From a bacterium (lineage in GTDB: Bacteria > Myxococcota > UBA727 > JAUIJE01): 64,000 nt of DNA. How positions within the stretch are numbered: position 1 is the first letter of the stretch; each line of letters starts with the position of its first letter. The stretch covers positions 186,001 to 250,000 of the forward strand of contig JAUIJE010000001.1 of NCBI GenBank assembly GCA_030431455.1, written 5' to 3'. The notes below the pieces were generated by a model, which was not told where the DNA came from, did not search any database, and saw nothing but the letters and a program-made list of their open reading frames with translations. The translations under genes were made by a program, and so were the position numbers. Below are positions 42,202 through 58,444 of the stretch, piece after piece.

Positions 42202-42332
42202 ACGAACATTCGTATATATATCGTTCGCGGCCGTCGCTGGGCACCGGCCTGCGAAGCCCATGGGCGAGGCGACGGGCCCACCCGGGCCCCGCATCTGGAC
42301 CGGCTCCGCCCAAATATGAACGTTCGTTTATC
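42198..42332. promoter_or_regulatory. Pair of inverted, near-identical palindromic elements in the cydB/CHAD gap
   Basis: Element 1 (42198-42213) reads ATAAACGAACATTCGT; element 2 (42317-42332), read on the other strand, is GATAAACGAACGTTCA. They match at 14 of 16 positions and each has a small dyad (ACGAA-CA-TTCGT; GAACGTTC). They are A/T-rich islands in GC-rich sequence and look like operators for one dimeric repressor. The rest of 42202-42443 shows no gene. Confidence 0.5.
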
Positions 42333-42443
42333 AATCGCTGCCACGCGGGTTCGTCGCGGTTTCTGCCCCACACGATCTCGGCCAAACCATCGTCGACCGC
42401 GCTATAGCTTGCGCGCCCCACCGGCTTTTTCCTGAGGGTTTTC

Positions 42444-43799
42444 ATGACCAAGACCAGCAACATCGGCGGCCCCCGCGTCCAGTCCCCCCGCACCCCCGGC
42501 ACCGAGCCGGCGGCGAAGCAGCCTGAGGCCACCACGGCGGCCGAGCCCGGCCTGCTTCACCCCGAGGACGGGGCCCGGCCTGCGACCAACCTGACCTCGA
42601 TGCCGTCCCGCCCCGGCGAAGTGGTGGCCAGCGAGGGCCCGTCGACGTCGCCGCTCGGCTCGCGCTTCGCCGACGTGCCGGTCCAACGCGGGCCCAACGC
42701 CCCCGTGGCCCCCGAGGTCAAAGCCCTGATGGAGACCTACGGCATCGAGAAGCGGCTCGGCCGCTCCGCCGAGCGCTTCCTGAAGTGGGGCGCGGTGGTC
42801 AGCGAGAAGCTCAACGTGTCCCGCGACCCGTCGGCGGTGGTGGACGCGGCGATGGACAAGGACGTGCGGCGGCAGGTGTTCCTCGTCGAGGGCCTGTTCA
42901 AGATGTACCGCAAAGAGATGCCCGAGCTCGTGCCCCAGTACGAGGCGATCAAGGCGTTCGAAGATTCGCTCGGGGCGTACAGCTACGCCCGGGGCATGGT
43001 GAAGCTCGCCGAGGAAAAGGGGCTTGACCCCAAGATCAAAGCCCACTTGGCGCACGAGTCCGCGGCCGCGCGGGAAGCGTTGACCAAGGTCGTGGCCGAC
43101 GGCTGGATTCCCGACGAGCAAGGCCGCGTGCCCGCCATCGCCGACATGGTCGAGGCGCTGGCCAAGGCCGACTTCGGGACCTACGAAGAGGACCGGCAGT
43201 TCTTGCGCGCGGAGCTCGAGGACATCGTGAAGGACCTCGACCGGGACATGAAGCTCGACGCGGATGAGGGCGGGTACGATTTGACCCAGCTCCAAGGCCC
43301 CATCGGGTTGCACGAGTTCCGCCGCGACATCCGTTGGTTCTCGGTGTGCGCCGAGGCGGTCGACGGGCTCGTGCAGCTCACCACCGAGCGCAACCCGGTG
43401 AAGGAATACAAAAATCTCATCATCACCGACGAGAACGATCCGAAGTTCGTCAGCGACCTCTCGACGTCGAAGTTCGTCAAGCTGCCCACCGCTGAGCGTG
43501 AAAACGGCGCGTTCGAGATCCCGCTGTCGCTCTACACCGCCAACATGAAAGGCGTGCTCGACTTCGGGGGGGCCAAGGACGGCGGGGAAGAGATCGAAGG
43601 CATCGCGCATGCGCTGCAAGCCATCGGCGAAGCCGACGACCTCGCGTCGGCGATGGCCAAGGCCACGGAGATGCTGGGCTATCCCGCCACCTACTTCGAC
43701 GACGCGCTCAAAAAGGGCCAAGAGATGTTCGAAGAGATGAAGGACAACAAGCTCTACAAGGCGCTGAAGAAAGAATTCGACCGGTACCAAGAGGACTGA
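42444..43799 (+). CDS. CHAD-like all-helical protein
   Basis: 451 residues. The first 75 are Pro/Ala/Thr-rich and disordered. Residues 100-451 are helical in two similar halves: KDVRRQVFLVEGLFKMYRKE with FEDSLGAYSYARGMVKLAE (172-190), and LHEFRRDIRWFSVCAEAV (His290, Arg293, Arg297) with LQAIGEADDLASAMAKATEM (391-410). The H-x2-R-x3-R and LQ-x-(L/I)G-x2-(N/D)D patterns are those of CHAD, a polyphosphate-binding domain usually found with CYTH. The third Arg of the first motif is Ser. Fits the CYTH genes downstream. The call is by eye and could be a divergent unrelated helical fold. Confidence 0.5.
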   Translation: MTKTSNIGGPRVQSPRTPGTEPAAKQPEATTAAEPGLLHPEDGARPATNLTSMPSRPGEVVASEGPSTSPLGSRFADVPVQRGPNAPVAPEVKALMETYGIEKRLGRSAERFLKWGAVVSEKLNVSRDPSAVVDAAMDKDVRRQVFLVEGLFKMYRKEMPELVPQYEAIKAFEDSLGAYSYARGMVKLAEEKGLDPKIKAHLAHESAAAREALTKVVADGWIPDEQGRVPAIADMVEALAKADFGTYEEDRQFLRAELEDIVKDLDRDMKLDADEGGYDLTQLQGPIGLHEFRRDIRWFSVCAEAVDGLVQLTTERNPVKEYKNLIITDENDPKFVSDLSTSKFVKLPTAERENGAFEIPLSLYTANMKGVLDFGGAKDGGEEIEGIAHALQAIGEADDLASAMAKATEMLGYPATYFDDALKKGQEMFEEMKDNKLYKALKKEFDRYQED

Positions 43800-43801
43800 G
43801 C

Positions 43802-44068
43802 GTGGCCAGCGAAGACAAACAAATCTTGGAAGGCCCCGGCGGGCTCCGCATCGAGGAAGACCTCTCGATCATGAAGCACCCGCCCAAGGACTACCGTGAC
43901 AAGCGGGCGGCCAACGCCCGCGAAGGCCACAACAACGAAGCCGCGGCCAAAGCCGCGGCCGCCATCGACGCGGGGGCTGCCAATGACCCTGCGTTCGGCA
44001 AAAAATCTGGCGCGCGCAACGCGCTGCTCTTTCACAACTGGGAAGGCGACAAGGACGACGACGCCTAG
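43802..44068 (+). CDS. Small hydrophilic protein in the CHAD operon
   Basis: 88 residues from a GTG two bases after the CHAD-like gene's stop. Charged, Ala/Asn/Lys-rich, probably disordered (IEEDLSIMKHPPKDYRDKRA; AREGHNNEAAAKAAAAIDAG), ending acidic. No family recognised. Spacing indicates one transcript with 42444 and 44114. Confidence 0.6.
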   Translation: MASEDKQILEGPGGLRIEEDLSIMKHPPKDYRDKRAANAREGHNNEAAAKAAAAIDAGAANDPAFGKKSGARNALLFHNWEGDKDDDA

Positions 44069-44113
44069 CCCCCGCAGACCATTCAACCGCTTTCAACGAG
44101 AAGGACACTACCC

Positions 44114-44728
44114 ATGCCCAACGTTTCCAGCACCCGCGGCGCCGCCGCCGCCCGCCAACCCCACGTCCCGAGCATGACCCCGCCGGCGGAGATGACCCGC
44201 CTGGCCCAAGCCGAAGCCGCCGCCGGCCGCGGGGTGGGCGAGATGATGATGCCCAAGGGCCGGGTCGACGACCTCGTCTCGCTCTACCACGCGGAAAAAC
44301 GCGACGCGGCCATCGCCACCGCCATCGCCGACAACGCGAGCATGCACATCCTGCGCTACAGCTACGGCACCCACAAAGGCATGGAGGCGTGGCTGGCCGA
44401 GGCCCCCCCGCGCGGCGAGAAGCTGAAGATGCAAGTGGTCTGCACCCCCAGCTGGCACGTGGGCAGCACCGAAGACCAAAAGGTCGCCAACGCCAACAAG
44501 TACGCGCTCAGCAACGCCTACATGTTCGAGGTGCGCTTCCCCGACGGGACCAAAGAGACCAAAGAGTTCAAGGTCAACGGCAGCACCCCCGAGTACGCGA
44601 CCAAGTCGCCGGTGATCGAAATCGACGCCGAGAAGTACAAGGGCCAAGACGTGGTCATCCTCGGCTGGCCCAAAGCCACCGGTGTCGGCGGCTACACCGA
44701 AGCGCGCAAGACCACCCTGCACCTGTAG
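44114..44728 (+). CDS. Unknown protein with Pro/Ala N-terminal tail
   Basis: 204 residues, GAGAAGGA before the ATG. Tail (MPNVSSTRGAAAARQP) similar in composition to the tails of the CHAD-like and giant CYTH proteins. Then a helical segment and a beta-rich half (EKLKMQVVCTPSWHVGST; YMFEVRFPDGTKETKEFKV; GQDVVILGWPKATGVGGYTE). No known family. Last gene of the plus-strand arm. Confidence 0.6.
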   Translation: MPNVSSTRGAAAARQPHVPSMTPPAEMTRLAQAEAAAGRGVGEMMMPKGRVDDLVSLYHAEKRDAAIATAIADNASMHILRYSYGTHKGMEAWLAEAPPRGEKLKMQVVCTPSWHVGSTEDQKVANANKYALSNAYMFEVRFPDGTKETKEFKVNGSTPEYATKSPVIEIDAEKYKGQDVVILGWPKATGVGGYTEARKTTLHL

Positions 44729-44735
44729 CCTCAGG

Positions 44736-44805
44736 GGGGCTGTTCCAGCCCCCCTCGGCCTTCACGGCTCGCAAGCTCGCCGAGTCAGGCCTCACCCCCG
44801 AGTCG
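44736..44805. repeat. 64-bp exact direct repeat, copy 1 (with hairpin)
   Basis: 44736-44799 is identical to 44994-45057, and after one mismatch AGTCG also matches. Starts with a perfect 7-bp hairpin (GGGGCTG-TTC-CAGCCCC, 44736-44752). Non-coding, between convergent genes. Confidence 0.9.
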
Positions 44806-44993
44806 TCGGGCCAGGTTCGCTTTGCTCACGGCCCTCCGGGGTTGCATCCGGTCGGATGCAACGCGCCGCGGAAACCGCGGGCCGCGGGGCCCCACTCCCC
44901 CCTCATCGCTCCAGGCTCCCGTCGGTCGCGTCGCGATGCCTCGCGTTTGCTCGGGCTCGTACGCTTCGCGTACGAGGCGACGGTAATTCGAGA

Positions 44994-45063
44994 GGGGCTG
45001 TTCCAGCCCCCCTCGGCCTTCACGGCTCGCAAGCTCGCCGAGTCAGGCCTCACCCCCAAGTCG
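44994..45063. repeat. 64-bp exact direct repeat, copy 2 (with hairpin)
   Basis: Second copy of the repeat at 44736, same orientation, 258 bp further on. The hairpin GGGGCTG-TTC-CAGCCCC is at 44994-45010. The sequence between the copies contains other hairpins unrelated to the repeat. Confidence 0.9.
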
Positions 45064-45446
45064 GCGCTCCAGGGGCCTCCGGCCCGTCGCGCCGGGTCGT
45101 ATGCATCTGCATACGACCAGTCGAGGAGTCTGGTCGCATACGACCGAAAAGACCCTTCAACGCTGCCACGCAGTGCGGGAGGGTCTCTTCAATTGTGCAT
45201 AGCCGCGCACACGACTCACACCCGCCCCAAAAGCTGCTCGCGCCTCCAACCAAACTCTCTTGAGCAAGCGGCGGGACGAGCCCCCATCGGGCGGTCGGAG
45301 CGGAAATGTTCGCCGCCGTCGACGGCGATATCCGGCCCCGGTGCCTGAATTTCAGCGAAGCATCCCGGCGGGCCGTCGTCGACAAATGGCGGTGAACGTT
45401 TTCGCGGAGCCCGCTCGACCACCGATCCGCCTGCTGAGAGTTGACC

Positions 45447-46640
45447 TCACCCGCGGAGATGGGCGAAGAACCGTTTGGCCTTGCTCGCGGCGGGGAACAC
45501 CTCGACCCCCACCTCGCGGAGCATGTCTTTGACGATGTTGTCCACCCGCTCGCCGATGGTGGGGTCGGGCACTTCGATCTCGAGCTCGTACGCGACGTGG
45601 TCGCCGGGGAACGTGGTGGTGTCCATCTCCAATGTGACTTCAATGTCCCCCAACTCGTCGCGCAGGGTGAATGGCTTTTTGATCCGGCGGTTCTCGAAGC
45701 TGCCGATGTTGGCCAGGGCCGCCCCCTCGAGCAGTTTGCGCATGTCGTCGGGCAGCACCGCCTCGGCCCCGTCCAGGGGATGCATCTGGGCGTACACCAG
45801 CGGGTCGAACTGCCCGGACTCGAACTCCGCGGTGGCCTCCTGATCGAGCACCCACTCCTCTTCGCGCTTCTGGGTCAGGGTCCCGTCCCCCGAGGAGCGC
45901 CCCTTGAGCGTGAGGGTCAGGGTGTCGCCCTCACGGCGCACCCGGCACACCATCTTCTCGCGGTTGAGCAGGAAAAAACTCGGGGTGTCGTAGAAGGTGT
46001 TCACCTGCACCCGCTGCACGGTGTCGTCGAGGCCGAACACCGCCCGGGCCTTGTCCGCGTCCGCTTTGCCGTTGAACGCGAATTTGAGCTCTACCTCTTG
46101 CGGCCCGAACAGCTCGCGGCCCACCGCCTCGAGCACGCGGGCGAGCTCGATGGGGGGCGGGTTGCAATGTGGCTGCACGTGAACGTGCAGCTGCCGCACG
46201 GACAGCGCGCGGGGGGGGTTGACCCAACACTGCACCGGCTGGGTCAACGTCGCGTGGGTCTGAAGGGCGTGCACCACCCGGCCCGCGAGCCGCTCGAGCG
46301 CGAGCTGCTCGGTGGCGGACAGGTCGGTGAGGAACATCGCGGGGCGCTTGGGCACGATCAGCATCTTGAGCCCGGCCCCGAAGCGGTCGAGCAACACCAT
46401 GTGGGTGTCGTCCTCGAACACCACCTGCTCGTCGTCGCGCGCCCCCGGCGCGTCCTCGGCGATGGGGGTGAAGGGGTCGGCCAGTTTCTCCACCCGGCCC
46501 CGCGCGGCCTTGACCGCGTCGTAGACCGCCTCGTTGGTGCCGCCGAGGGCGGCCTTCCAATCCGCGAACAGGGCCGGCCGGGCATCGTCGGCTTGACTGA
46601 CCCGGTGCGCGGGGGCGATGTCCTCGTCGTGGTTGCTCAT
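45447..46640 (-). CDS. HIT-domain / CYTH-domain fusion protein
   Basis: 397 residues. N-terminal HIT-like domain (about 70-160): LIVPKRPAMFLTDLS, then LHVHVQPH with His152, His154 and Gln156, i.e. the GalT-type H-x-H-x-Q form of the HIT motif with the nucleophilic His154. C-terminal CYTH/triphosphate-tunnel domain (about 180-395): EVELK (ExExK, 182-186), FYDTPSFFLL, CRVRREGDTLTLTLKG (233-247), KREEEW and YELEIEVP. The HIT family transfers or hydrolyses nucleotides, CYTH handles triphosphates, so the fusion probably acts on a nucleotide or inorganic triphosphate. No clear ribosome-binding site; a dyad abuts the start. No other obvious hypothesis fits both halves. Confidence 0.75.
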   Translation of the reverse strand: MSNHDEDIAPAHRVSQADDARPALFADWKAALGGTNEAVYDAVKAARGRVEKLADPFTPIAEDAPGARDDEQVVFEDDTHMVLLDRFGAGLKMLIVPKRPAMFLTDLSATEQLALERLAGRVVHALQTHATLTQPVQCWVNPPRALSVRQLHVHVQPHCNPPPIELARVLEAVGRELFGPQEVELKFAFNGKADADKARAVFGLDDTVQRVQVNTFYDTPSFFLLNREKMVCRVRREGDTLTLTLKGRSSGDGTLTQKREEEWVLDQEATAEFESGQFDPLVYAQMHPLDGAEAVLPDDMRKLLEGAALANIGSFENRRIKKPFTLRDELGDIEVTLEMDTTTFPGDHVAYELEIEVPDPTIGERVDNIVKDMLREVGVEVFPAASKAKRFFAHLRG

Positions 46641-46660
46641 GGTGCAAAGCGTAGTGCACC
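46641..46660. promoter_or_regulatory. Dyad directly upstream of the HIT-CYTH start
   Basis: GGTGCA, 8 nt, TGCACC, touching the start codon (46638-46640). It takes the place where a Shine-Dalgarno is expected; it may be an operator or an RNA hairpin. Its core TGCA-N-TGCA resembles the dyad before cydAB. Confidence 0.4.
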
Positions 46661-46689
46661 GCGCCGCGGAGGGCGACCGGGGCCGCCGG

Positions 46690-49600
46690 TCAGCCTTGGG
46701 CGGGCGCGGTCAGTCCGCTCCAGGTCTCCAGTCGTTTGATCACCTGCGGCAGGTTGCTCCACCGGAGCGCGCTGGGGTCGAGCTTGTCCTTCTTCGCCGC
46801 CGCCCGCAGGGCTTTGCCCATCCAGGTCTCGGTCTCGGCGTTGAGGGCGCTGACGTCGATTTGGCCCGAGGTCTTGAGCGAGTCCACAATGGCATTGGTG
46901 TCCCAGCGCATGCCCTCGGACAGGTAGAGACCATCGGGGACCTCGAGCTTGCGGCTCTTGACCGCCTTTTTGAGGTCGTTGCTGCGGCTCAGGTCGCTCA
47001 TCACCGCGAGCACATCCTGCGGGGGGTTGCCGGCGTCGTCGACCAGCGCCCACAGCTTGTCGAACAGCTTGTCCTCATCCGAGAAGAACACCTGCTTGGC
47101 CTGCTCCTGGTAGGCGGCCTCGAAGTGGGCCTTGAGGTACTTCACCTTGGGGGCGGCCACATCGGGCAGGCCACCCGAGGACTGGTAGCGTTTGATCGCT
47201 TCGTCGGCGGTGTTGTGGCGCAACGAGCGCACCACCTGGTTCAAGGTCTGGGCCGCGGCCCCGGCGTCGAGGGCTTTCTCCACATAGGTGCGCAGGCTGC
47301 TGTTGTAGCTGACCCCGATTTCGCCCGCTGCGCCTTTGAGCACGTTGTGGACCGCGGCCTTGTCGACCGAGATCGACGGGGGCGTGACCCCGATGCGCTG
47401 GGCCGCCTCGGTGAACCACTTTTGGTAGTCCGCGCGGGACAGGGGATAGAGATTGCGCGCCTTGTCCGGGCTGGTCTGGTTGGCCACGTCGGCGAGGAAG
47501 GTCTCCAGCTCGGGGGTGAACACAACGTGATTGTTCGCGAGCTGGGCCTTGGCCCCATCGATGAACTGGGTCGGGTCGGTGTGCAGGGCGGGCACCTCCA
47601 GGCCGCCGGCCGCGGTGGCCAAGGTCTTGAGCCCGCTGTCCGCGTAGTAGTTCAACGACTGGATGGCCCGGCGCAGCTGGTAGGCGCTCGCCCCTTTGCG
47701 CTTGGCCGCGCGGAGCAGGGTCATGATCGCGTCCTTGTCTCCGGGCGCGACCCAGCCTTGTTTCATTTGGGCGTCGATCTTCTCGGCCTCGGCGAGCTTG
47801 TCGACGTTGATGGTCGCGCTCGGCGCGGGGGAGACGCCGGCTTTCTGGGCGAGCTCGGCCAGGGCTTTGCCCTCGTCCCCGGTGCGCAGCTGCCCCACCA
47901 ACCGGTGGAGGTCTTTGGGGGCGAGCTTCTTGGTGTCGAGCTGCTTGAGCATGTCCCGGATGCCCTTGTTGCTGTCGAGGCCCACCGATTCGAGGGTGTC
48001 GTCGACGAGCACGGACAGCGCCCGGTGGTCGTAGACGAGCTTGGGTGCGCTGCGGCCGAACACCTTTTTCACCAACGCGGCCGGGTCTTGACCGTTCCAG
48101 TCTTGGTCGAGCTGTTGGTTGAGCTTGTCGAGGCCGCCGTCTTTGTCCGCGAGCTTGTCGAACGCGGCCGCGAGGTCGTCGGTCCAGTCGAGACCAAAGC
48201 CGCGCAGGGCGAACTCGAGGCGCCGCTCCGCCCCCGCTTCGGTGTCCGGGTTCATGTCGAGGAGGTCGGCGGCGTGGGCGGCTTTTTGCTTGCCCGGGTT
48301 GAGCCCATCGGGGAACAGGAAGGGCAGCAGCTTGCCGTTGGCCCCCTCGAACTGCTTGTACGAATCGGTGCCCCGGAACGATTTGTTCTCGAGGTCTTCG
48401 AGCTCGTGCAGGCGGGGGTCGATGTCCATGGTGACCTTGGACCCGGTGGTCTTGAGCCAATCGTCCTGGGCATCGTCGGTGGAGAACGAGCCCGTGCCCG
48501 CCCCCGCGGCCTGGAAGCTGTTCTGGTTCTGCGATTGCAGCTGGAGGTGATCGAGTTCGCCCTCGAGCACGCAGAACTCAATCTTGCGCGGCTTGCCGTT
48601 GCGGTCGGCGTGGGTTGGGCGCAATGTCTCTGCAGTGACAAAGTCGAACGAGAACTCGATCTCGACCCCGGTCTTTTCGTTCTTCACCGTGAACTTGTGA
48701 CGGTCCTGGGTGATCTGCATGAATGGGTCGAGGGCCTCGGCGAGCTCGAGCTGGCTGTCGAGCTTCTTCACCTCGCGCTCGGCGTGGTTGAACACCGTGT
48801 TCGCCCATTTGCCGTTGGTCGCGACCCCCCGCAGAAAGCCGGCCACATCGTCGGTGTCCGCGTCCGCCTTGAGCTCCAAACCGACCTCTACGCGCTGGCG
48901 GATGCCGGTCTTGTCGTCGAGGCGACCGCCCCCGGGCTTGACGTTGATGAAGGTGGCCTGCTTGTTTTTGCGCAACCGCACCGCGCCTTCGTGGCGGGTC
49001 ATGGTGAGGTTCTTGTTGTCCATGTAGGCGTCGCTCATGGGGTCTTGCAGGGGCAGCCCGTCGTCGCCCACGCGGAAGCCAGCGAAAAACCCGGTGCCGG
49101 GTTTGCCCTTGTCGCTGCTGCCGTCGTCCTTGATCCAGTACCGGTTGACGGTGCTGATCGACCAGCCCTTGCCGAGGAGCTTCTCGATCTGGCTGTGGTC
49201 GCCTTTGCTGCTGGCCTCGACGATGCCGTACATCTTGTGCACCGCCGCGGTCATCTTGGCTTTGTCGGTGGTGCCTTTGAACTCAGACTCCAAGCGCGAC
49301 ACGATCGCGCCCCCGTCCTTGAGCATGGGGTAGGTCGCCACCAAGTCGGGGGCGTAGCCCACCTGCATGTCCAGGGGCAGGTCGGTGGCGTCGCCTTGGT
49401 TGCCGGTCATCGCCCCGATGCGGGTCGACGTCGGAGATTGGGCCCCTTCGGGCAACGGGGTCCGGAAGGAACCGCCGCGCGCCGGCCCCCCCGCGCGGTG
49501 CCGCACCCCCCCGCTGTCGTTGTTCCACATCGCCATCACCGACAAGCTGGTGTGGCCGGGGTTGATCTTGAGGTTGGGGTTGCGGGCCTGGAGGAACTTG

Positions 49601-50121
49601 TTCACGTCGGCGTAGCTGACGTCGAACGTGCGCGAGCCGCGGTACTTGTCCCCGTTGATGTTCTCTTTGTTGGTCAACACCGACAGGTTGATGGTGCGCA
49701 GCTGGTTGGTCTCGAGGTCGAGCACCTCGGCCATCAGCACCAGGGTCATCTTGTCGTTCTTGTCCTTGTGGAACGTGTTGACCGTGACCCGCACCCCGCC
49801 GGGGATGGCTTGGGGTTCGACCTCGATGTAGCCGCGCTTGACCGCGTCGCTGCCCGAGCCCGCGGTGAACGAGGTGTCCGCGCCGAAGCGGTTGGTGGCC
49901 ATGGTGTCGAAGGTGGTGGTCAACCCTTTGAGGCCGTTGATCGTCGCCTTGGGGGGTTGGTTGCTGATGCGCCCGGCCCCCGAGGGCACCGGCGCGGCGT
50001 CGGCCGCGGGGGTGGCGTCGCTGGTCGCGGGGGCCGCGGGGGCGGCCGGCCCGGTGGTCGCGGTGGTGCTGGTCGTCGAGGTCGCGGGGCGATTGGTGCG
50101 GGGTCGGTTGATGTGGGGCAT
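46690..50121 (-). CDS. Giant CYTH/triphosphate-tunnel protein, paralogue A
   Basis: 1143 residues starting MPHINRPR, GAGGC before the ATG. Layout: disordered Pro/Ala/Thr tail (1-50); beta-rich domain (60-215: GGVRVTVNTFHKDKND, VLDLETNQLRTINL, YADVNKFLQARNPNLK); CYTH domain (272-530) with ExExK as ESEFK (278-282), YMDNKNLTMTRHEG (367), RLRK (382-385), Lys395, RQRVEVGLEL (408), RHKFTVK (474), VEIEFSFDF (486) and CVLEGELDH (517); then about 570 residues of helical repeats of 80-90 residues. All tunnel signature positions are present, so it is likely catalytic. Its CYTH part is nearly the same as in B and C while the repeats have diverged. Substrate unknown: triphosphate, polyphosphate or a nucleotide. 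Confidence 0.75.
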   Translation of the reverse strand: MPHINRPRTNRPATSTTSTTATTGPAAPAAPATSDATPAADAAPVPSGAGRISNQPPKATINGLKGLTTTFDTMATNRFGADTSFTAGSGSDAVKRGYIEVEPQAIPGGVRVTVNTFHKDKNDKMTLVLMAEVLDLETNQLRTINLSVLTNKENINGDKYRGSRTFDVSYADVNKFLQARNPNLKINPGHTSLSVMAMWNNDSGGVRHRAGGPARGGSFRTPLPEGAQSPTSTRIGAMTGNQGDATDLPLDMQVGYAPDLVATYPMLKDGGAIVSRLESEFKGTTDKAKMTAAVHKMYGIVEASSKGDHSQIEKLLGKGWSISTVNRYWIKDDGSSDKGKPGTGFFAGFRVGDDGLPLQDPMSDAYMDNKNLTMTRHEGAVRLRKNKQATFINVKPGGGRLDDKTGIRQRVEVGLELKADADTDDVAGFLRGVATNGKWANTVFNHAEREVKKLDSQLELAEALDPFMQITQDRHKFTVKNEKTGVEIEFSFDFVTAETLRPTHADRNGKPRKIEFCVLEGELDHLQLQSQNQNSFQAAGAGTGSFSTDDAQDDWLKTTGSKVTMDIDPRLHELEDLENKSFRGTDSYKQFEGANGKLLPFLFPDGLNPGKQKAAHAADLLDMNPDTEAGAERRLEFALRGFGLDWTDDLAAAFDKLADKDGGLDKLNQQLDQDWNGQDPAALVKKVFGRSAPKLVYDHRALSVLVDDTLESVGLDSNKGIRDMLKQLDTKKLAPKDLHRLVGQLRTGDEGKALAELAQKAGVSPAPSATINVDKLAEAEKIDAQMKQGWVAPGDKDAIMTLLRAAKRKGASAYQLRRAIQSLNYYADSGLKTLATAAGGLEVPALHTDPTQFIDGAKAQLANNHVVFTPELETFLADVANQTSPDKARNLYPLSRADYQKWFTEAAQRIGVTPPSISVDKAAVHNVLKGAAGEIGVSYNSSLRTYVEKALDAGAAAQTLNQVVRSLRHNTADEAIKRYQSSGGLPDVAAPKVKYLKAHFEAAYQEQAKQVFFSDEDKLFDKLWALVDDAGNPPQDVLAVMSDLSRSNDLKKAVKSRKLEVPDGLYLSEGMRWDTNAIVDSLKTSGQIDVSALNAETETWMGKALRAAAKKDKLDPSALRWSNLPQVIKRLETWSGLTAPAQG

Positions 50122-50159
50122 GGGGCCTCGGGGACAAAATGGGTGTCGGGGCGTTCGAC

Positions 50160-50193
50160 AAAAAATGGAGCGCGCGGGGTCGGGCCCCGCGCG
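50160..50193 (-). terminator. Intrinsic terminator between giant genes B and A
   Basis: Perfect 9-bp GC stem (50171-50179 with 50185-50193), loop TCGGG, followed on the minus strand after 5 nt by TTTTTT (50165-50160). It implies that paralogue A is either expressed by read-through or from its own promoter. Confidence 0.75.
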
Positions 50194-50218
50194 AAGAGGG
50201 CGGAAGGGCCGCCGCGGT

Positions 50219-53200
50219 CTAGGGCACGCCCGCCGGGGGCGCGTCGCCGGACCAGGCTTGCACGTGTTTGACCACGTTCTGCGGGGTCTGGTTGTAAATG
50301 GTGTAGAGCACAAACTCGGGGTTCTGGATCGCCTTGGGCAACGCCTGCTCGAGGTACTTTTCAAGCTCAGGCTTCATCGTGCGCATGTAGCTCGACGAGG
50401 TCTTCCAGTAGCTGATGAGCTGATCGGGCTGCCACGCCACCTTGGGCTCGGTCAGGCCGTCGGGGACTTTGTAGGCGGGGACGAACCGCTTGAACGCCTC
50501 GCCCAATGTCTTGGAGCGGTTGAAGTACCCCGCGGCCCGGGTGAGGTTGTAGGGCGTGAGGGTCGGGTCGGCTTTGCACAGATCCACAATGAACTGCGCG
50601 ATCTCGCCGTGGTTGTTGAAGGGCACGTTCTGCGTGCTGTTCTGCAGGTTGTTGGACACAAAGCCCGGCTCGAACGAAATCTGCGGCACCTGCGTGCCCT
50701 CGGGCAAGGCCACCCGTTGGCGGCTGAACGCGTTGGCCGGCGTTTGGTTCCAGAGGCTGGCCACGAACCCTTCGACCTTGGACACCGGCGCGCCGTTGCC
50801 GAGCAGGTCGAGGGCGAACTTGGTCAAGGCGTCGTCGACCACGACCCCCACCTGACCGGCCGCGCCTTGGAGCCGGGACTTGACCGCGCTCTCGTCGAGC
50901 TGGAGCGGGGGCGCGGTCAGACCTTGCTTGGCCGCGAAGGCATCGAGCTGCTGCTTGAAGTCGGCGCGGGCCAGGCTCGACACGAAGGTGTGCATGTCGC
51001 GGCGCGGGACCTTCTTGGCCGCTTCTTTGAGGAAGTCCTCGAGGGCGCTGTCCACCATCACCAGGTGGGACGAGAGTTTGCCCGCGACCTCGCCGATGAC
51101 GCGCTTTTTGTCCGCGTGCAGCACCGGCGGGGTGGTCCCGGGGGCGGCCTGGGCCACCCGCTGGAGCGCCGACTCCGGGTTGTTGGCGAACACCGCGAGA
51201 GCGTCGCGGATCTTCTTGGCGCTGGCGCCCTTTTGCACCGCGTCGTCGACGAACGCCTGGATGTCGCCGAACGCCCCGCGGTCGATCCACGCCGCCGCCA
51301 TCGGGCCGTGCAGCCCCTGGGTGAGCTTTTGCGTGTCGATGCCGGGCGCGGGCACCGGGCTGACCCCCAGCGCGTTGGCCAGCGCGGTGAACGCGAGCTT
51401 GTCGTCTTGCTGGGGCACCCCGTTGAGCAACGTGCGCAGCTGTTGCGGGGGCAGCTTGGCGATGTCGATCTGGCCGAGCATGGCCTCGATCTCGGGGGTC
51501 ATGGTCAGCCCCAGCCCGGTGAGGCTCGCCTCGACGGTGGACTTGATCATCGCCGGGTCGTAGCGGAGGCCGGTCACGGGCTGGTTGTCGTTGAGTTGCT
51601 GCAGCAGCCCGTCAATGTTGTTGCGGTACTTGTCGAGGATCTGGTTGGTGCTTTGCACCCCGCCGTCGGCCTCGGCCTTGGTCTTGACGAGTTTTTCGAG
51701 CTCAGGCGTCCACTCGATGCCGTACTGCCCGACGAGGAAGGCCATCTTGTTGACCACCGCGGGCGCGTCCTTGACCACCGCGGACAGCAGGTCCGCACCG
51801 TGGGCGGCCTTCTGCTTGGCGGGGTCGAGTCCGGCGGGGAACAAGAAAGGCAGGAGCTTCTTGTTCGCCCCTTCGAAGGCTTTGTAGGAGCCGGTGGAGC
51901 GGAACGATTCGTTCTCCAGGTCCTCGAGCTCGTGCAGCCGGGGATCGATGTCCATCGTGGCCTGGGCCGACGTGGCCTTGAGCCAGTCGTCTTGGCTGTT
52001 GTCGTCCTTGAACGCCAAAAAGCCCGCGCTCGACCCTTGAAAGTCAGTGGCATTGGCGGACTGCAGCTGAAGGTGGTCGAGCTCGGCCTCGAGCACCGCG
52101 TATTTGACCTCCCGGGGGGAGCCGTCGAGGTTGCCGTGCTCGTTGCGCAACGTACGGGCGGTGACGAAGTCGAAGCTGAGCTCGATCTCGACCCCGGTTT
52201 TTTCGTTCTTGACCGTGAACTTGTGGCGGTCCTGGGTCACGTCGAGGAACGGCTGCAGGGTGTTGGCCAGCTGCATGCTCGCGTCGAGTTTTTTGACCTG
52301 CCGCTCGGCGTGGTTGAACACCGTGTTGGACCATTTGGCGTTGCGGGCCACGTCCTTGAGGTACTTGGCCGCGTCCTGTTGGGTCGCGTCCGCGCGCAGC
52401 TCCACCCCGACCTCGACCCGCTGGCGGATGCCGGTGCGCGGGTCGAGCCGGCCCCCGCCGGGCTTGACGTTGATGAACGTGGCCTGCTCGTTCTTGCGCA
52501 GGCGGATGGCGCCTTCCTCTTTGGTCATCGAGAGCTGGGCGTCGTCCATGTACTGGTCGCGCATGGGGTCTTGGATGGGCAGGCCCTCGTCGTCGACGCG
52601 GAACCCTTTGAACATCCCGGTGCCGGCTTGGCCCGGGGCGTTGGCGCTCCCGTCGTCCTTGAGCCAGTAGCGGTTGACGGTGGTGATGTTCCAGTCGGGG
52701 CCGAGCAGTTGGGTGATGCCCGAGCGGTCCCCGCCGGCGGCTTTGCCGACGAGGTCGTACATCTTGCGCACCGCCGAGGCCATGTCCTTCTGGGTCGAGC
52801 TGCCCTTGAACTCGGACTCGAGCCGGCTCACCACCGAGCCGCCTTGCTTGAGCATGGGGAACTGCTTGACCAGCTCAGCGGGGTAGGCGACCTGCATGTC
52901 GAGGGGCAGGTCGGTCTGCTCGGTGTGTCCCGTGACATTGCCGATGCGGGTGGCGGTGGGGGATTGCGCCCCGGCGGGCAGCGGGGTGCGGAAGTTGCCG
53001 CCCCGGCCCGGGCCCCCGGCTTGGTGGCTGCCGTTGAACTTCGCCGCCACCGCGAGCGACGTCGTGCCCGGGTTGAGCTTGAGGTTGGGGTTGCGCGCTT
53101 GCAGGTAGGCGTTGACGTCGGCGTAGCTGATGTCGAACGACGCGGACCCGCGGTAGCCGCCCTCGTTGAGCACCACCTGTTTGGCCAGGACCGCGAGGTT

Positions 53201-53638
53201 GATGGTGCGCAGCTGGTTGGATTTGGTGTCGAGGACCTCGGCCTGCAACACGAGGGTGAGCTTGTCCCCCTTCGACTTGTGGAAGGTGTTGACGTGAATG
53301 CGCGCGCCCCCGGGGATCGCGTCCGCGCTGACCTCGATGAAGCCGCGGCTGACCGCGCCTTCGCCCTCGGCGTGGAAGTTGTTGAACTCGGTGGTGACGT
53401 TGAAGCGGCTGCCCGCGGCCGACAATTCGCGCGCATCGAGGCCGTTGAGCCCGTTGATCGGGACCTTGGGCACCGCGGCGTTGATGGTGCCGGCGGCCGA
53501 GGGAATGGGGGCGTCGGGGGTGGCCGCGCCGGCGGGCGTGGTGGTGCCGGTGGCGGTGGTCGACGTCGTCGCGCCGGCGCCCGTGGTCCCGGTGGTCGCG
53601 GTCGGGGTGGTGGGGCGGTTGCGGTTGATGCTGGGCAT
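50219..53638 (-). CDS. Giant CYTH/triphosphate-tunnel protein, paralogue B
   Basis: 1139 residues starting MPSINRNR, GAGGTG before the ATG. Same layout as A: Thr/Ala/Pro tail to about 48, beta-rich domain (GGARIHVNTFHKSKGD, YADVNAYLQARNPNLK), CYTH domain with ESEFK (274-278), QYMDDAQLSMTKEEG, RLRKNEQATFINVK, RQRVEVGVEL, RHKFTVKNEKTGVEIELSFDF and AVLEAELDH, then helical repeats ending in IYNQTPQNVV. The acidic strand is VLEAELDH where A has VLEGELDH. In the repeats, units share a P-x-x-x-(V/L)D-x(3)-V start. No signal peptide or TM, so cytoplasmic unless the tail directs export. Confidence 0.75.
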   Translation of the reverse strand: MPSINRNRPTTPTATTGTTGAGATTSTTATGTTTPAGAATPDAPIPSAAGTINAAVPKVPINGLNGLDARELSAAGSRFNVTTEFNNFHAEGEGAVSRGFIEVSADAIPGGARIHVNTFHKSKGDKLTLVLQAEVLDTKSNQLRTINLAVLAKQVVLNEGGYRGSASFDISYADVNAYLQARNPNLKLNPGTTSLAVAAKFNGSHQAGGPGRGGNFRTPLPAGAQSPTATRIGNVTGHTEQTDLPLDMQVAYPAELVKQFPMLKQGGSVVSRLESEFKGSSTQKDMASAVRKMYDLVGKAAGGDRSGITQLLGPDWNITTVNRYWLKDDGSANAPGQAGTGMFKGFRVDDEGLPIQDPMRDQYMDDAQLSMTKEEGAIRLRKNEQATFINVKPGGGRLDPRTGIRQRVEVGVELRADATQQDAAKYLKDVARNAKWSNTVFNHAERQVKKLDASMQLANTLQPFLDVTQDRHKFTVKNEKTGVEIELSFDFVTARTLRNEHGNLDGSPREVKYAVLEAELDHLQLQSANATDFQGSSAGFLAFKDDNSQDDWLKATSAQATMDIDPRLHELEDLENESFRSTGSYKAFEGANKKLLPFLFPAGLDPAKQKAAHGADLLSAVVKDAPAVVNKMAFLVGQYGIEWTPELEKLVKTKAEADGGVQSTNQILDKYRNNIDGLLQQLNDNQPVTGLRYDPAMIKSTVEASLTGLGLTMTPEIEAMLGQIDIAKLPPQQLRTLLNGVPQQDDKLAFTALANALGVSPVPAPGIDTQKLTQGLHGPMAAAWIDRGAFGDIQAFVDDAVQKGASAKKIRDALAVFANNPESALQRVAQAAPGTTPPVLHADKKRVIGEVAGKLSSHLVMVDSALEDFLKEAAKKVPRRDMHTFVSSLARADFKQQLDAFAAKQGLTAPPLQLDESAVKSRLQGAAGQVGVVVDDALTKFALDLLGNGAPVSKVEGFVASLWNQTPANAFSRQRVALPEGTQVPQISFEPGFVSNNLQNSTQNVPFNNHGEIAQFIVDLCKADPTLTPYNLTRAAGYFNRSKTLGEAFKRFVPAYKVPDGLTEPKVAWQPDQLISYWKTSSSYMRTMKPELEKYLEQALPKAIQNPEFVLYTIYNQTPQNVVKHVQAWSGDAPPAGVP

Positions 53639-53709
53639 GGGGCACCTCGGTTGGCGGATCCCACGCGCGGGGCCGGGGCCCCAAATGGGCCGGGGCTCGG
53701 ACGGCTTCC

Positions 53710-53744
53710 GACAACCCAAAACTCTATGAAATCAAGGGGTTGTC
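53710..53744. promoter_or_regulatory. Inverted repeat upstream of paralogue B
   Basis: GACAACCC and its exact complement GGGTTGTC, 19 nt apart, 72 bp before the start of B. The spacer is A/T-rich and could hold promoter elements. Candidate operator or mRNA leader hairpin. Confidence 0.4.
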
Positions 53745-53754
53745 TGGCGGGGAA

Positions 53755-53806
53755 CCGTGCCCCCTATATAGCCCAAACTCCGCCGGATTGGCGGAGAAAG
53801 CCCGCG
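53755..53806 (-). promoter_or_regulatory. Upstream block shared by paralogues B and C (copy at B)
   Basis: About 50 bp that align with 57361-57412 upstream of C: CCGTGCCC, a TAT-containing step, GCCCAA, then CCG-ATT-GGCGGAG and GCCCGCG. At B the element includes a perfect dyad CTCCGCC-GGATT-GGCGGAG (53778-53796) and CTATATAG. Likely a shared promoter or operator duplicated with the genes. Confidence 0.55.
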
Positions 53807-53845
53807 TGCGGCCGCCTTGGCGCCCCTGGGCGCCACCCAAGCCGC

Positions 53846-53867
53846 TCTTACATAAGTCTTACATAAG
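53846..53867. repeat. Tandem 11-bp repeat TCTTACATAAG x2
   Basis: Two exact, adjacent copies of TCTTACATAAG just after the stop of paralogue C. Each has a CTTA/TAAG dyad, so this may be a double operator spaced by one helical turn, lying about 200 bp upstream of B. Confidence 0.7.
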
Positions 53868-53914
53868 TCCTGCGCGAGGTCCGCCCAGCGAAGGCCACCA
53901 CCGGCGATCCTGGG

Positions 53915-56900
53915 TCAGAGGCCGAGCGCGTCGGGCAGGGCCACCCCGGACTGCTCGGCCAGGCGTTTGGCCACCGACGACAAGCTGCCCTTTTTCATCC
54001 GCAGGATGCTGAACTTCGCGTCGCCGCTGGCCTTGTCGAACACCTTTTTGACCCACGCCTCGACCGCGGGGCTGACTTTGGCCCCGTGCGCTTGTTTGAG
54101 GTGGGCCACGAAGGCGTCCTCATCGAAGTCCACCGCGGGCACCGTGAGCCCGCCGGGCACATCCACCTTGGCGCTCTTGATCGCGGCCGCGAGGTCGGGC
54201 ACCCGAATCTTCTCGAACATCGCCACCACATCTCCAGGAGCATTGGCGCCGTCTTTGATCAGCTTCTCCCCGAAGGCGAGCAGCTTGGCCCCATTGCCCA
54301 CGAAGTTCTCGTCGAACGCCGCCTCGGCCGCGTGGTCGAACGCGGTGGGCGCGAACGCGATGTCCGGCACCGACAACCCCGCGGGGACCTTGATGTGGGA
54401 AGCCTTGAGCGCCTGCTCGGGGGTGTTCATCCACAGGCGGCTGACGAAGGGGGCAATCTTCGACGAGGGCGTGCCCGCGTCGGCCAGGGCGTGGCAAAAG
54501 CCCTTGAGCGACGCGTCGTAGACCACGTTGGCCCCCGCGCAGGCCGCCTTCAGGCTCTCGTCGAGGGCGGCCTTGTCGAGCTCGAGGGCGGGCATGGTCA
54601 CACCCAGGTCCTTGGCCTGCTTTTGCAAGAACCGCTCGAAGTCGCTTCGGCTCAGCGACGACACGAAGGTCTGGACCTCGGTGAGCGGCTTTTGCTCGGC
54701 CACCTGCTCGAGGAGCTTCTTCAGGGCGGGGGTGAGCTTGATGTTGTGGCGGGTGAAGTGGACGTTGGCCTCGTCGACCACGCGTTTTTTGTCCGCGTGG
54801 ATCACGGGGACCTGGGCCGCGCTCCCCCCCGGCGCGCTGCGGGCGATGTAACCCAGCGCGCGGTCGCCGTACGACGAGAAGTTGCGCATGTACGACGCGA
54901 TGCGGTCGCCGGTGACGCCCTGTTGGAGCATCTGCCCGAGGAACTTCTCGATCGCCTTCCGGTCGGCCGTGGCCACCCACGCGGTGTCGAGCTGGGGCTC
55001 GATGCTCTTCATGAATTTGGCGGGGGAGAACGTCGGCTCGGGAGCGCGGCCGCGTTGGCCGAGCCGGGCCGCCATGTTGCGGAACATGTAGGCGGGGGTG
55101 GCGGTGGCGAGGGCGTCCAGGGTCTGCTTGAGCTCCACCGGGTCGAGCTTTTTGGGGTCGAGCTTCTTGATCAGGTCTTTGACCCCGTCGTTGATGGTGT
55201 AGCCGGCGGCGTCGAGGGTGGCGGTGATGGTCTTTTCGATCCCGGCCTTGTCGTAGGTGAGGGCGGGGGTTCGCTGGGTGTCGAGCACCGCGGCGAGGTA
55301 CTGCTTGACGTTGCGGAACTGTGGCAAGCGGCCGAGGTCGCGGCCCACATCTTTGATGCCGTCGTCTTTGTCGAGGCGTTTTTTGAACGCTTTGTCGACG
55401 TTGGCGGTCCACTCCAGACCCAGCGAACGGAACTGCCGCTTGGCCGCGGTGAGCGCGCTGTTCTTGTCGGTGATGATCAGGTCCAGCAACGTGGCTGCGT
55501 GGGCGGCCTTCTGCTTGCCGGGCTTGAGCCCCCTCGGAAAGATGCGCTGGAGGAGCTTGCCGTTGGCCCCCTCGAACGCCTTGTAGGACTCAGTGGACCG
55601 AAAGCTGTTGTTCTTGAGGTCTTCGACCTCGTGCAGGCGGGGGTCGACGTCGAGGGTGACCTTGCTCGAGGTCTTCTTGAGCCAATCGTCCTGGCCCCGG
55701 TCGTCCGAGAACGACGACGACGACGCCCCCGCGGCCTGAAACTCATTCTGGTTGGCGGACTGCAGCTGCAGGTGGTCGAGCTCCCCTTCGAGCACACAGA
55801 ACTCGATGACCTGGGGCTTGCCGTCGGCGCCGGCGTGCTCCGGCCGGGTGGTGGTGGCCTTGACGAAGTCGAAGGAGAACTCGATCTCCACCCCCGTCTT
55901 CTCGTTCTTCACCGTGAACTTGTGGCGGTCTTGCACCACCTCGAGGAACGGCTTGAGGGACTCGCTGAGCGCGATGGTGGGGTCGAACTTGTGCACCTCG
56001 CGCTGGGCGTGGTTGTACACCGTGTTGCCCCACTGGGAATTGGTGGATACCCCGCGCAGAAAGCCCGCCGCGTCGTCGACATCGGCGTCGGCCTTGAGCT
56101 CGACCCCGACCTCCACGCGTTGGCGGATGCCGGTCTTGTCGTCGAGGCGACCGCCCCCCGGCTTGACGTTGATGAACGTGGCCTGCTTGTTCTTGCGCAG
56201 CCGGATCGCCCCTTCGTGGTGGGTCATGGAGAGGTTGCCGTCGTCCATGTAGCTGTCGCGCATCGGGTCCTGGATCGGCAGCCCTTCGTCGTCGACGCGG
56301 AACCCTTTGAAAAAGCCCGTGCCGGGCTTGCCCGGTTGCTCGGCCCCGCCCTCGTCCTTGAGCCAGTAGCGGTTGACCGTCGAGATCGTCCAATCCTTGC
56401 CGAGCAGCGCCTCGACGTCGCTCTTGTCGCCGCCCTGGATTTTCTCGACCATCGCGTACATCTCTTTGACCGCGCGGGTCATCTCCGCCTTGTCGGTGGT
56501 GCCTTTGAACTCCGACTCCAGGCGCGAGACGATGGCCCCCCCGGGCTTGAGCATCTTGTAGGTCCGGGTCAACGCGGGGTCGTAGGCGACCTGCATGTCG
56601 AGGGGCAGGTCGGTGGCCTCGCCGCGGTTGCCCGACAGGTTGCCGATGCGGGTGGCGGTGGCGCTCTGCGCGCCCGCGGGGAACGGGGTGCGGAACGAGC
56701 CCCCGCGCCCGGGCCCGCCGGCCTGGTGTCCGCTCTTGAAGCGGGCCGCGACCGACAGCGGGGTGTGACCGGGGTTGAGCTTGAGCGCGGGGTTGCGGGC
56801 TTTGAGCCACTTGTTCACGTCGTCGTACTTGAGGTCGTAGACCTTCTGCCCGCGGTAGCTGTCGCCGTTGATCTTCTCGTTCTCGGCGAGGATGCCGAGG

Positions 56901-57334
56901 GTCACGGTGCGCAGTTGGTTGGTCTTGGTGTCGAGCACCTCACACATCAAAAACAACGTGATCGCGTCGTTCTTGGTTTTGTGGAAGGTGTCGACGGTGA
57001 CGCGGCAACCGCCGGGGATGGGGTCGGCGTTGACCTCGATGAAGCCGCGATCGACCGGGCCTTCACCGTCGGCGTGGTAGTGCTGAAATTGGGAATCGCC
57101 CGCGAAGCGCCGGGTGGCGTTGGTGGGCATGGTCGGGCGCTTGCCGCCGAACCCGTCGATGGTGGCCTTGGGGACGTTGGATTGGATCTCGCCCGCCGCG
57201 CTCGGCACCGGGGGGGTCGTGCCCGACGTGCCCGCGGCCGGGGTGGTGGCGGTGGCGCCGCTGGTCGACGTCGCGGCCCCAGAGCTGGCGGCGCGCGGGG
57301 TCCGGGTGGAGCGGGGACGGTTGATGCGGGGCAT
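53915..57334 (-). CDS. Giant CYTH/triphosphate-tunnel protein, paralogue C
   Basis: 1139 residues starting MPRINRPR, GAGGTG before the ATG. Thr/Ala/Pro tail to about 48, beta-rich domain (GGCRVTVDTFHKTKND, YDDVNKWLKARNPALK), CYTH domain with ESEFK (273-277), SYMDDGNLSMTHHEG, RLRKNKQATFINVK, RQRVEVGVEL, RHKFTVK, VEIEFSFDF and CVLEGELDH, then helical repeats (VPAGLSVPDIAFAPTAF, VPGGLTVPAVDFDEDAF). Closest to A within the CYTH domain. First of the three giant genes in transcription order, 136 bp after the RMD1 gene; the shared promoter block is 27 bp upstream. Confidence 0.75.
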   Translation of the reverse strand: MPRINRPRSTRTPRAASSGAATSTSGATATTPAAGTSGTTPPVPSAAGEIQSNVPKATIDGFGGKRPTMPTNATRRFAGDSQFQHYHADGEGPVDRGFIEVNADPIPGGCRVTVDTFHKTKNDAITLFLMCEVLDTKTNQLRTVTLGILAENEKINGDSYRGQKVYDLKYDDVNKWLKARNPALKLNPGHTPLSVAARFKSGHQAGGPGRGGSFRTPFPAGAQSATATRIGNLSGNRGEATDLPLDMQVAYDPALTRTYKMLKPGGAIVSRLESEFKGTTDKAEMTRAVKEMYAMVEKIQGGDKSDVEALLGKDWTISTVNRYWLKDEGGAEQPGKPGTGFFKGFRVDDEGLPIQDPMRDSYMDDGNLSMTHHEGAIRLRKNKQATFINVKPGGGRLDDKTGIRQRVEVGVELKADADVDDAAGFLRGVSTNSQWGNTVYNHAQREVHKFDPTIALSESLKPFLEVVQDRHKFTVKNEKTGVEIEFSFDFVKATTTRPEHAGADGKPQVIEFCVLEGELDHLQLQSANQNEFQAAGASSSSFSDDRGQDDWLKKTSSKVTLDVDPRLHEVEDLKNNSFRSTESYKAFEGANGKLLQRIFPRGLKPGKQKAAHAATLLDLIITDKNSALTAAKRQFRSLGLEWTANVDKAFKKRLDKDDGIKDVGRDLGRLPQFRNVKQYLAAVLDTQRTPALTYDKAGIEKTITATLDAAGYTINDGVKDLIKKLDPKKLDPVELKQTLDALATATPAYMFRNMAARLGQRGRAPEPTFSPAKFMKSIEPQLDTAWVATADRKAIEKFLGQMLQQGVTGDRIASYMRNFSSYGDRALGYIARSAPGGSAAQVPVIHADKKRVVDEANVHFTRHNIKLTPALKKLLEQVAEQKPLTEVQTFVSSLSRSDFERFLQKQAKDLGVTMPALELDKAALDESLKAACAGANVVYDASLKGFCHALADAGTPSSKIAPFVSRLWMNTPEQALKASHIKVPAGLSVPDIAFAPTAFDHAAEAAFDENFVGNGAKLLAFGEKLIKDGANAPGDVVAMFEKIRVPDLAAAIKSAKVDVPGGLTVPAVDFDEDAFVAHLKQAHGAKVSPAVEAWVKKVFDKASGDAKFSILRMKKGSLSSVAKRLAEQSGVALPDALGL

Positions 57335-57360
57335 GGGGCACCTCGTGACGTGACAAAACG

Positions 57361-57412
57361 CCGTGCCCGGTATTGCGCCCAAGTGCCGATTTTGGCGGAG
57401 GTTTTGCCCGCG
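57361..57412 (-). promoter_or_regulatory. Upstream block shared by paralogues B and C (copy at C)
   Basis: Matches 53755-53806. It retains CCGTGCCC, GCCCAA, CCGATTTTGGCGGAG and GCCCGCG but the dyad is imperfect here. It is much nearer the start (about 27 bp) than at B. Upstream of it, on the minus strand, an A/T-rich run (57445-57470) follows the RMD1 stop. Confidence 0.5.
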
Positions 57413-57470
57413 ATCCGCGCGGGCCAGGGTGGCCTGGGCCCCGCGGTAAGTGCTTAAAAAATATAAAGAA

Positions 57471-58337
57471 TCAGCTCTTGATCCACTCGCTGAGCATGAT
57501 GAAGACCTCGACCGCGATGAGGGCCACGATGAGCCACTCGAGCCGGAGGCTGCGGCGGTTGGCGCTCAGCTCGACGAGCATGCGGGCGGTGTCGTCGAGC
57601 AGCGCCATCTTGCGGTTGAAGGTGGCGTGGCGTTCGGACAGCTCGTATTCCTGGCGCAGGCCGGCGTAGAGGCGGTCGAGGTCGGGGCGGTCCCAGACCA
57701 CGTCGGGCTTTTCGTCGAGCTCGACGTCGCGCAAGAACCGGAACCGGTTCTTCAATGTTCCCCCAATGCTCTTGATCAGCGCGCGGTCGGTGCCGACCAC
57801 GCGGCCCCCGTCGGCCAAGCCGGTGGCCCAGCTCTCGGCGGTCTGGAGCAGCTCGACGATGGCCGCCTCCCGGTGGGCGAGGGCCACGCTCTGGGCGAGG
57901 GCGGTGGCGGCGACGTCGCAGTGGGCGAGGGTCAAGCGTTCGACCTGGGCCTGGCCGTTGTGCACGGTGAGCGGGCCGGGGCCTTGCTCGAGGACCAGGC
58001 CCTCGGTCTCGTCGATGTCCACCGCGCCGACGACGTGGGCGGCGAGGGTGGTGAGCACATGGGCGCGGACCAGCGGACCGGCCTCGAACAGCACGATCAC
58101 CCCGTAGGGGGCGACGAAACCGAACGCCCCGTCGGGGGCGGGGCTGGGGGGCGCCTTTTTGATCCGGGCCACGAACGCGGGGTCGAAGCGCTCCCCGAGG
58201 ATGATCGCTTCACCGACGACGCGGCCTCGCGGCAACGGGGCGACGTCGAGCCCGCCGGCGTCGACCGCGTACAGAGGAATGTTGACCGCGCCGGGGTCTT
58301 TGACCGGCAGCAGGGTGTCGTCGGGGTCGCGGGGCAT
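57471..58337 (-). CDS. RMD1/DUF155 family membrane protein
   Basis: 288 residues. The C-terminal DUF155 signature is clear: VVWDRPDLDRLYAGLRQEYE, ERHATFNRKMALLDDTARML and SLRLEWLIVALIAVEVFIM, ending in one TM. The N-terminal part (VVGEAIILGERFDP, APYGVIVLFEAG) is also typical. Eukaryotic relatives (Rmd1, Rmd8, Sif2) sit in mitochondrial or other membranes; the bacterial role is unknown. It is upstream of and co-oriented with the three CYTH giants. Confidence 0.82.
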   Translation of the reverse strand: MPRDPDDTLLPVKDPGAVNIPLYAVDAGGLDVAPLPRGRVVGEAIILGERFDPAFVARIKKAPPSPAPDGAFGFVAPYGVIVLFEAGPLVRAHVLTTLAAHVVGAVDIDETEGLVLEQGPGPLTVHNGQAQVERLTLAHCDVAATALAQSVALAHREAAIVELLQTAESWATGLADGGRVVGTDRALIKSIGGTLKNRFRFLRDVELDEKPDVVWDRPDLDRLYAGLRQEYELSERHATFNRKMALLDDTARMLVELSANRRSLRLEWLIVALIAVEVFIMLSEWIKS

Positions 58338-58444
58338 GGGACAAGCTTACCGTTGCCCGGGGCGCCCGGCCCGAATGCGAGCCCCGGCGGCGGCCAATTC
58401 GAGCCGCTGGGCGCTAGACTCAAAACGCGCCCAGGAGGACCGAC

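Follow-up and report, generated by a model that had tools for sequence, protein, structure and literature searches.

A protein joining HIT and CYTH domains in a member of the Myxococcota, with a possible role in handling nucleotide-linked phosphate chains

Locus and gene layout

The DNA analysed here (the window) is a stretch of 64,000 nucleotides from contig JAUIJE010000001.1 of a myxococcotal genome. It contains a gene whose product carries a HIT domain followed by a CYTH (triphosphate tunnel) domain (Table 1). This gene comes at the end of a co-directional run, after those of three very large proteins, giants A–C, which are tandem paralogues with 45–48% identity to one another. The giants start with MPxINR, preceded by GAGG. 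No promoter-like or terminator-like sites have been found at 44600–46900, and there are no Rfam matches at 42300–58500. An 83-nt direct repeat lies between c2 and the fusion gene (copies at 44733–44815 and 44991–45073, 94% identical); it has no Rfam match, and each copy opens with a GC-rich, hairpin-like stretch. Beyond the giants are a DUF155 (RMND1/Sif2-like) gene at 57471–58337 on the minus strand and a DUF362 gene at 58445–60616 on the plus strand.

Table 1. Features of the fusion locus, in window positions, and related proteins at other loci
Feature	Position	Strand	Remarks or basis
Family c3, 451 aa	42444..43799	+	G193 homologue overlaps a CYTH gene by 4 bp
Family c2, 204 aa	44114..44728	+	adjoins stand-alone HIT or CYTH genes elsewhere
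HIT-CYTH fusion gene	45447..46640	-	397 aa, ATG start; unbroken frame and Pfam
CYTH (triphosphate tunnel) domain, residues 181-391	45468..46100	-	Pfam and profiles
ExExK signature, E182-V-E184-L-K186	46083..46097	-	CYTH alignment, sequence
Linker, residues 159-180	46101..46166	-	translation
HIT domain, residues 54-158	46167..46481	-	Pfam, PDB profile, predicted fold
Triad Q150-L-H152-V-H154-V (H152, presumed nucleophile)	46176..46193	-	alignments and model
Lys92 (place of the Hint upstream catalytic His)	46365..46367	-	11-row alignment, HMMER, MAFFT
N-terminal stretch, residues 1-53	46482..46640	-	LFADWKAAL fits the LLxDWxxA motif of the stand-alone HIT relatives
Giant A, 1143 aa, putative cryptic CYTH domain	46690..50121	-	stop codon 49 bp ahead of the fusion's ATG
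Giant B, 1139 aa, putative cryptic CYTH domain	50219..53638	-	paralogue of A and C
Giant C, 1139 aa, weak CYTH match	53915..57334	-	paralogue
Pyruvate-kinase-barrel proteins	L031:259-2937, L034:2749-5436, L041:5577-8180, L148:4192-7644		Pfam tested in L031, L034 and L148

The initial annotation had placed both domains on one protein, and this is borne out. The frame has no internal stops, and both domains exceed their Pfam cut-offs within it. PF01230 (HIT) matches residues 70–157 with 23.3 bits against a cut-off of 21.5 (E 1e-4; 26.3 bits in a genome-wide search), and PF01928 (CYTH) matches residues 181–391 with 53.3 bits against 23.2 (E 3.9e-14). The motifs listed in the annotation, namely H152, H154, Q156, LIVPK (94–98), EVELK (182–186), RVRR (233–236), FYDTP, and TLKG, are all found where it had put them. 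The long insert of the stand-alone HIT relatives, which have the LLxDWxxA motif, is absent from the fusion.

The two halves occur in one frame in a single genome, its own, of the 195 genomes of the phylum, which could suggest an artefact of assembly or gene calling. Such an origin is highly improbable, since the contig is 906,356 bases long, the frame is unbroken, and both domains are complete. Third-position GC is 0.94 and 0.91 in the two halves, and codon-position GC is similar in both and in the linker, so there is no sign of a wrongly joined frame. The occurrence of HIT and CYTH on one chain is therefore confirmed as a real fusion.

Fold and active site of the HIT half

Because the HIT score barely exceeds the Pfam cut-off, additional tests have been made with profiles and a predicted structure. 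An 11-row HIT profile, built from the fusion and 10 stand-alone relatives, finds HIT proteins among PDB entries, the best at E 4e-6. The predicted structure of the fusion has a pLDDT of about 70–90 across residues 41–160, and Foldseek gives 44 matches of the model to HIT proteins at E <= 0.001. In the VIA comparison, model residues 54–180 superpose on 3o0m with Z 12.1 and rmsd 3.1 over 123 aligned residues. The VIA list consists exclusively of HIT-superfamily chains, and the lack of CYTH chains in it is no argument against a CYTH fold in the other half. The initial annotation had proposed a predicted structure of residues 70–170 as the check on its HIT assignment, and the model confirms the HIT fold there.

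The assignment of the catalytic residues has changed. A GalT-like triad, H152-x-H154-x-Q156, had been annotated, and this register is two residues off in all alignments, leaving Gln156 beyond the triad. HMMER aligns the QLHVH of the family to the HLHVH of 2eo4 and the QLHVH of 3i4s, and 3lb5 gives the same triad register. When a further two HIT proteins encoded in this genome are included, three MAFFT modes put Q150, H152, and H154 on the triad positions, with QLHVHV opposite the HIHLHV of another HIT protein from this genome. For several Hint1 entries, the VIA alignment runs as far as model residue 164, equivalent to Hint1 residue 124. Provided that there is no gap between, this offset of 40 sets Q150, H152, and H154 on Hint1 residues 110, 112, and 114, which we take to be the Hint1 triad; H112 and H114 of Hint1 are named in the PDB titles of VIA matches. 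Since the three registers agree, the triad is read as Q150-x-H152-x-H154, in which the nucleophile and the third histidine are retained. It is a Gln-His-His triad with H152 as the presumed nucleophile in the middle.

Conservation among the 11 HIT rows follows the same register. H152, H154, Lys92, N141, and D85 are invariant, and Q150 is present in 10 rows and replaced with arginine in the remaining one (G011). Position 156 is variable (Gln in 2, Leu in 4, Ala in 2, Gly in 2, and Arg in 1), and the occurrence of Gln156 is no better than chance.

The GalT triad carries a glutamine at its third place. GalT and the fusion belong to a common superfamily and share the middle nucleophilic histidine, but in the fusion the glutamine is at the first place; the GalT residues named in PMC5081055 are His186 and Gln188. 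The H-x-H-x-Q string does exist in the sequence, and the initial annotation called it GalT-type, which would make the HIT half a nucleotidyl transferase for NDP-sugars or similar substrates. This assignment is hardly credible given the two-residue shift in each alignment made and the presence of Gln156 in 2 of 11 rows. Furthermore, the profile matches of the protein, taken to an E as high as 10, include no GalT family. The GalT reading has been rejected on register, from the HMMER, MAFFT, and VIA alignments together with the 11-row conservation.

The Hint and Fhit hydrolases share with the fusion the fold, the nucleophilic middle histidine, which is H152 here, and the third histidine. They have the canonical HxHxHxx motif with three histidines, whereas the fusion has glutamine as the first triad residue and a lysine in place of the upstream histidine. 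Lys92 aligns with this upstream histidine of Hint in both HMMER and MAFFT, and PMC7157772 describes a catalytic role for it. The closest precedent for the triad is 3i4s, the solved structure of Bradyrhizobium blr8122, in which QLHVH likewise replaces HxHxH, although this protein has a tryptophan at the Lys92 place and no CYTH domain. A Gln-first triad is thus not unique to the HIT clade of the fusion. The HIT hydrolases of the MccH clade, as described in PMC7157772, resemble the fusion in having lost the upstream histidine and in having a changed triad, but there the third histidine has become lysine (HxHxK), while in the fusion the first has become glutamine.

The substitution of both the first triad histidine and the upstream histidine could abolish nucleotidyl transfer. 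The main alternative to a catalytic HIT half is one whose binding of a nucleotide gates the CYTH half, making the protein a nucleotide-controlled tripolyphosphatase. This would agree with the two substitutions, with the report in PMC7157772 that replacing the upstream or the third histidine of Hint substantially lowers activity, and with the retention of the pocket residues D85 and N141 in all 11 rows. It is weakened by the invariance of H152 and H154, by the same QLHVH in a solved HIT protein (3i4s), and by the MccH enzymes, which PMC7157772 describes as active despite their changed triad. On balance, we consider a non-catalytic HIT half unlikely, though a serious contender. As the active-site residues are kept in the stand-alone relatives, the site is a constrained variant and not a decayed one. 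The clade, with glutamine first and lysine upstream, provides a natural variant for asking which triad residues are needed.

The CYTH half

A 16-row CYTH profile matches triphosphate tunnel enzymes in the PDB (best E 8.9e-23), including 5a5y, 3v85, 8h92, and 5a60, and tripolyphosphatases are among the nearest solved relatives. In the fusion and 15 relatives, 21 columns are invariant. The CYTH half of the predicted model has low pLDDT, with no CYTH rows in the input, and the fold is taken from the sequence profiles.

The signature residues of the triphosphate tunnel metalloenzymes (TTMs) in the fusion are E182, E184, and K186; V231; R233 and R235; the catalytic lysine K246; and E352, E354, and E356. 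Motif rules that separate TTMs from class IV adenylyl cyclases and thiamine triphosphatases are given in PMC8233210. In place of the cyclase motif HFxxxxExExK the fusion has ELFGPQEVELK, and in place of the W/YxRxR of thiamine triphosphatases it has VCRVR, with V231 at the W/Y place. By these rules, an ExExK that no HF precedes, the valine before R233-x-R235, and the ExE glutamates indicate a TTM and neither a cyclase nor a thiamine triphosphatase. The sequence therefore points to a CYTH half of the TTM type with inorganic-triphosphatase signatures. Tripolyphosphate hydrolysis by such enzymes is reported in PMC4641920. Like the inorganic triphosphatases plant TTM3 and ygiF, the fusion has ExExK, RxR, the catalytic lysine, and the ExE strand; unlike them, it has a HIT domain attached.

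The CYTH fusion partners given in the relevant part of PMC8233210 are HD hydrolase, exopolyphosphatase, nucleotidyl kinase, and CHAD, and HIT is not listed there. No literature joining a HIT domain and CYTH in a fusion has been found, in a search whose scope lay outside the fusion table of the founding CYTH paper; two papers that name CYTH together with the histidine triad are, judging by their titles, on other matters. Viral relatives of the CYTH half have not been found either. Its best matches are the CYTH proteins of G125 and G193, both encoded beside giants, but the CYTH tree, with long branches and the fusion row unplaced, gives no support to this relationship.

The giant proteins

The giants appear to carry a cryptic CYTH domain. 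PF01928 matches giants A, B, and C with 18.3, 19.3, and 15.6 bits, below the cut-off of 23.2 (E 0.001–0.014). In a family search, giant B reaches 22.5 bits, or 23.6 bits with its frame neighbours, and a homologue in G011 exceeds the cut-off with 26.6 bits. Profile–profile comparison of the giants with CYTH gives E 0.045, and their predicted structure, made from three rows only, has a mean pLDDT of 37.6. ExExK (as RLESExKG), RxR, a lysine, and ExE are invariant in all nine giants aligned, the ExExK falling outside the Pfam match and being assigned by eye.

Distribution and partner families

The fusion protein is matched at E <= 1e-6 in 19 of the 195 genomes of the phylum. No fusion has been found in plasmids or phages. 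Scans of genome contigs used short-peptide patterns, which limit their sensitivity; the whole-protein scan gave nothing, and the HIT-profile scan gave seven loci, every one through the HIT half. The CYTH half of the fusion itself escaped the family search, so claims of absence from such searches are weak. A phage origin has been set aside, the sole PHROG match (E 0.06) being taken as noise.

Stand-alone HIT genes number ten, in G000 (a second copy), G011–G015 (two in G014), G027, G028, and G125. In genomes other than the fusion's own, HIT and CYTH are encoded separately, in linkage with the same partner families. Thus c2 follows HIT in G011, G013, and G014, and precedes CYTH in G012. The CYTH gene is next to a giant in G125, and in G193 the two are no more than 1.5 kb apart. 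A pyruvate-kinase-barrel protein precedes HIT in G013 and G014 and precedes c2 in G012 and G033; these proteins, which adjoin HIT, c2, or CYTH genes, are 870–1,150 aa long with the barrel in their C-terminal part. A Ppx/GppA-type gene follows CYTH in G012 (Pfam tested) and in G014 and G015 (same cluster), a linkage confined to one family (f5). The ties of the stand-alone HIT genes to phosphate genes are indirect, through c2 and the pyruvate-kinase protein. For HIT, the stretches taken from G000, G012, G027, G028, and G125, and around the second of the two copies in G014, contain no such neighbours, and the G015 contig ends at the HIT neighbourhood. Nor were any seen beside CYTH in the stretches taken from G001, G027, G032, and G192.

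By genome, giants are matched in 10 of the 195 (the fusion's own included), HIT in 9, and c2 and c3 in 11 each. The association drawn from these counts is one of linkage. All six pairs of these families co-occur beyond chance, with p from 6e-13 to 6e-10 by genome, values that related genomes inflate. By family, p is 1e-5 to 2e-3, assuming 31 families, which is a lower bound, in a test that ignores the deeper tree.

A CHAD identity for c3, prompted by an HxxRR..R pattern seen by eye, gains no support from hhalign (probability 0.05%) or from Pfam (no CHAD match in two members). Polyphosphate kinase is encoded in the fusion's genome on another contig, and there is no PF05235 (CHAD) match in that genome. 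In G012:C7, G013:C42, and G014:C9, unlike in this genome, a true CHAD gene and polyphosphate kinase are about 0.5–0.7 kb apart, measured between their matches.

The neighbourhood bears on another reading of the HIT half, as a phosphoramidase or de-AMPylase of the Hint/MccH type that cuts NMP from amines, with CYTH just removing related phosphates and the pair clearing nucleotide conjugates. The closest folds are those of Hint-like and other HIT hydrolases, and according to PMC7157772 altered-triad HIT hydrolases are used in this way in Hyalangium minutum and other bacteria. However, no biosynthetic or immunity genes are seen adjoining the fusion, the PADLOC (defence) search matched none of five proteins (the fusion, giant B, c2, c3, and one pyruvate-kinase relative), and the partner genes are CYTH-like. 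We regard this reading as distinctly unlikely.

Proposed function

Gene fusions point to proteins that act together, and tripolyphosphate is a usual substrate of TTMs. We propose, tentatively and from sequence, that the fusion could be a two-step phosphate-anhydride enzyme for nucleotide-linked phosphate chains. In the HIT half, H152 would attack the alpha-phosphate of a nucleotide-capped chain, such as nucleoside tetraphosphates or dinucleoside polyphosphates carry, freeing NMP and a short phosphate chain. A nucleoside tetraphosphate split at the alpha-phosphate would yield NMP and tripolyphosphate. The CYTH half would then hydrolyse the tripolyphosphate, or a short polyphosphate, to PPi and Pi, so that nucleotide-linked phosphate would re-enter the pools of NMP and Pi. 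That a triphosphate is handled in steps, as the initial annotation had suggested, is plausible. No literature linking the histidine triad with adenosine tetraphosphate and tripolyphosphate has been found.

Sharing what looks like this tunnel signature, the giants may handle related phosphate chains. A wider proposal, which we consider very doubtful, is that some bacteria of the phylum have a previously undescribed phosphate-chain module. In this module, the tunnel-based giants, the Gln-His-His HIT protein, a small TTM phosphatase, the pyruvate-kinase-barrel protein, c2, and c3 would jointly build, cap, or break down nucleotide-linked polyphosphate, with HIT and TTM fused in the present genome. 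If so, nucleotide release and chain hydrolysis would there be carried out on one chain. Under this proposal the giants could even act as polymerases, like the tunnel domain of yeast VTC4. Both domains are already known; the wider module is more interesting than the fusion, and less certain. Through the fusion, two phosphate-handling folds that are widely conserved become linked to three unannotated giants and to families c2 and c3, which gives a testable way into their roles.

The N-termini of the giants (46690–57334, minus strand) are rich in Thr, Pro, and Ala. An MPxINRP- or MTxIGNRP-like leader followed by a Thr/Pro-rich stretch is found in giants A, B, and C, in the giants of L068, L072, and L076, and in the HIT protein of L034. 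This pattern, chosen after the sequences were seen, occurs in 7 of 74 module-family genes and in none of 640 other called genes at the same loci. The leader common to the giants and the HIT protein might be a sorting signal.
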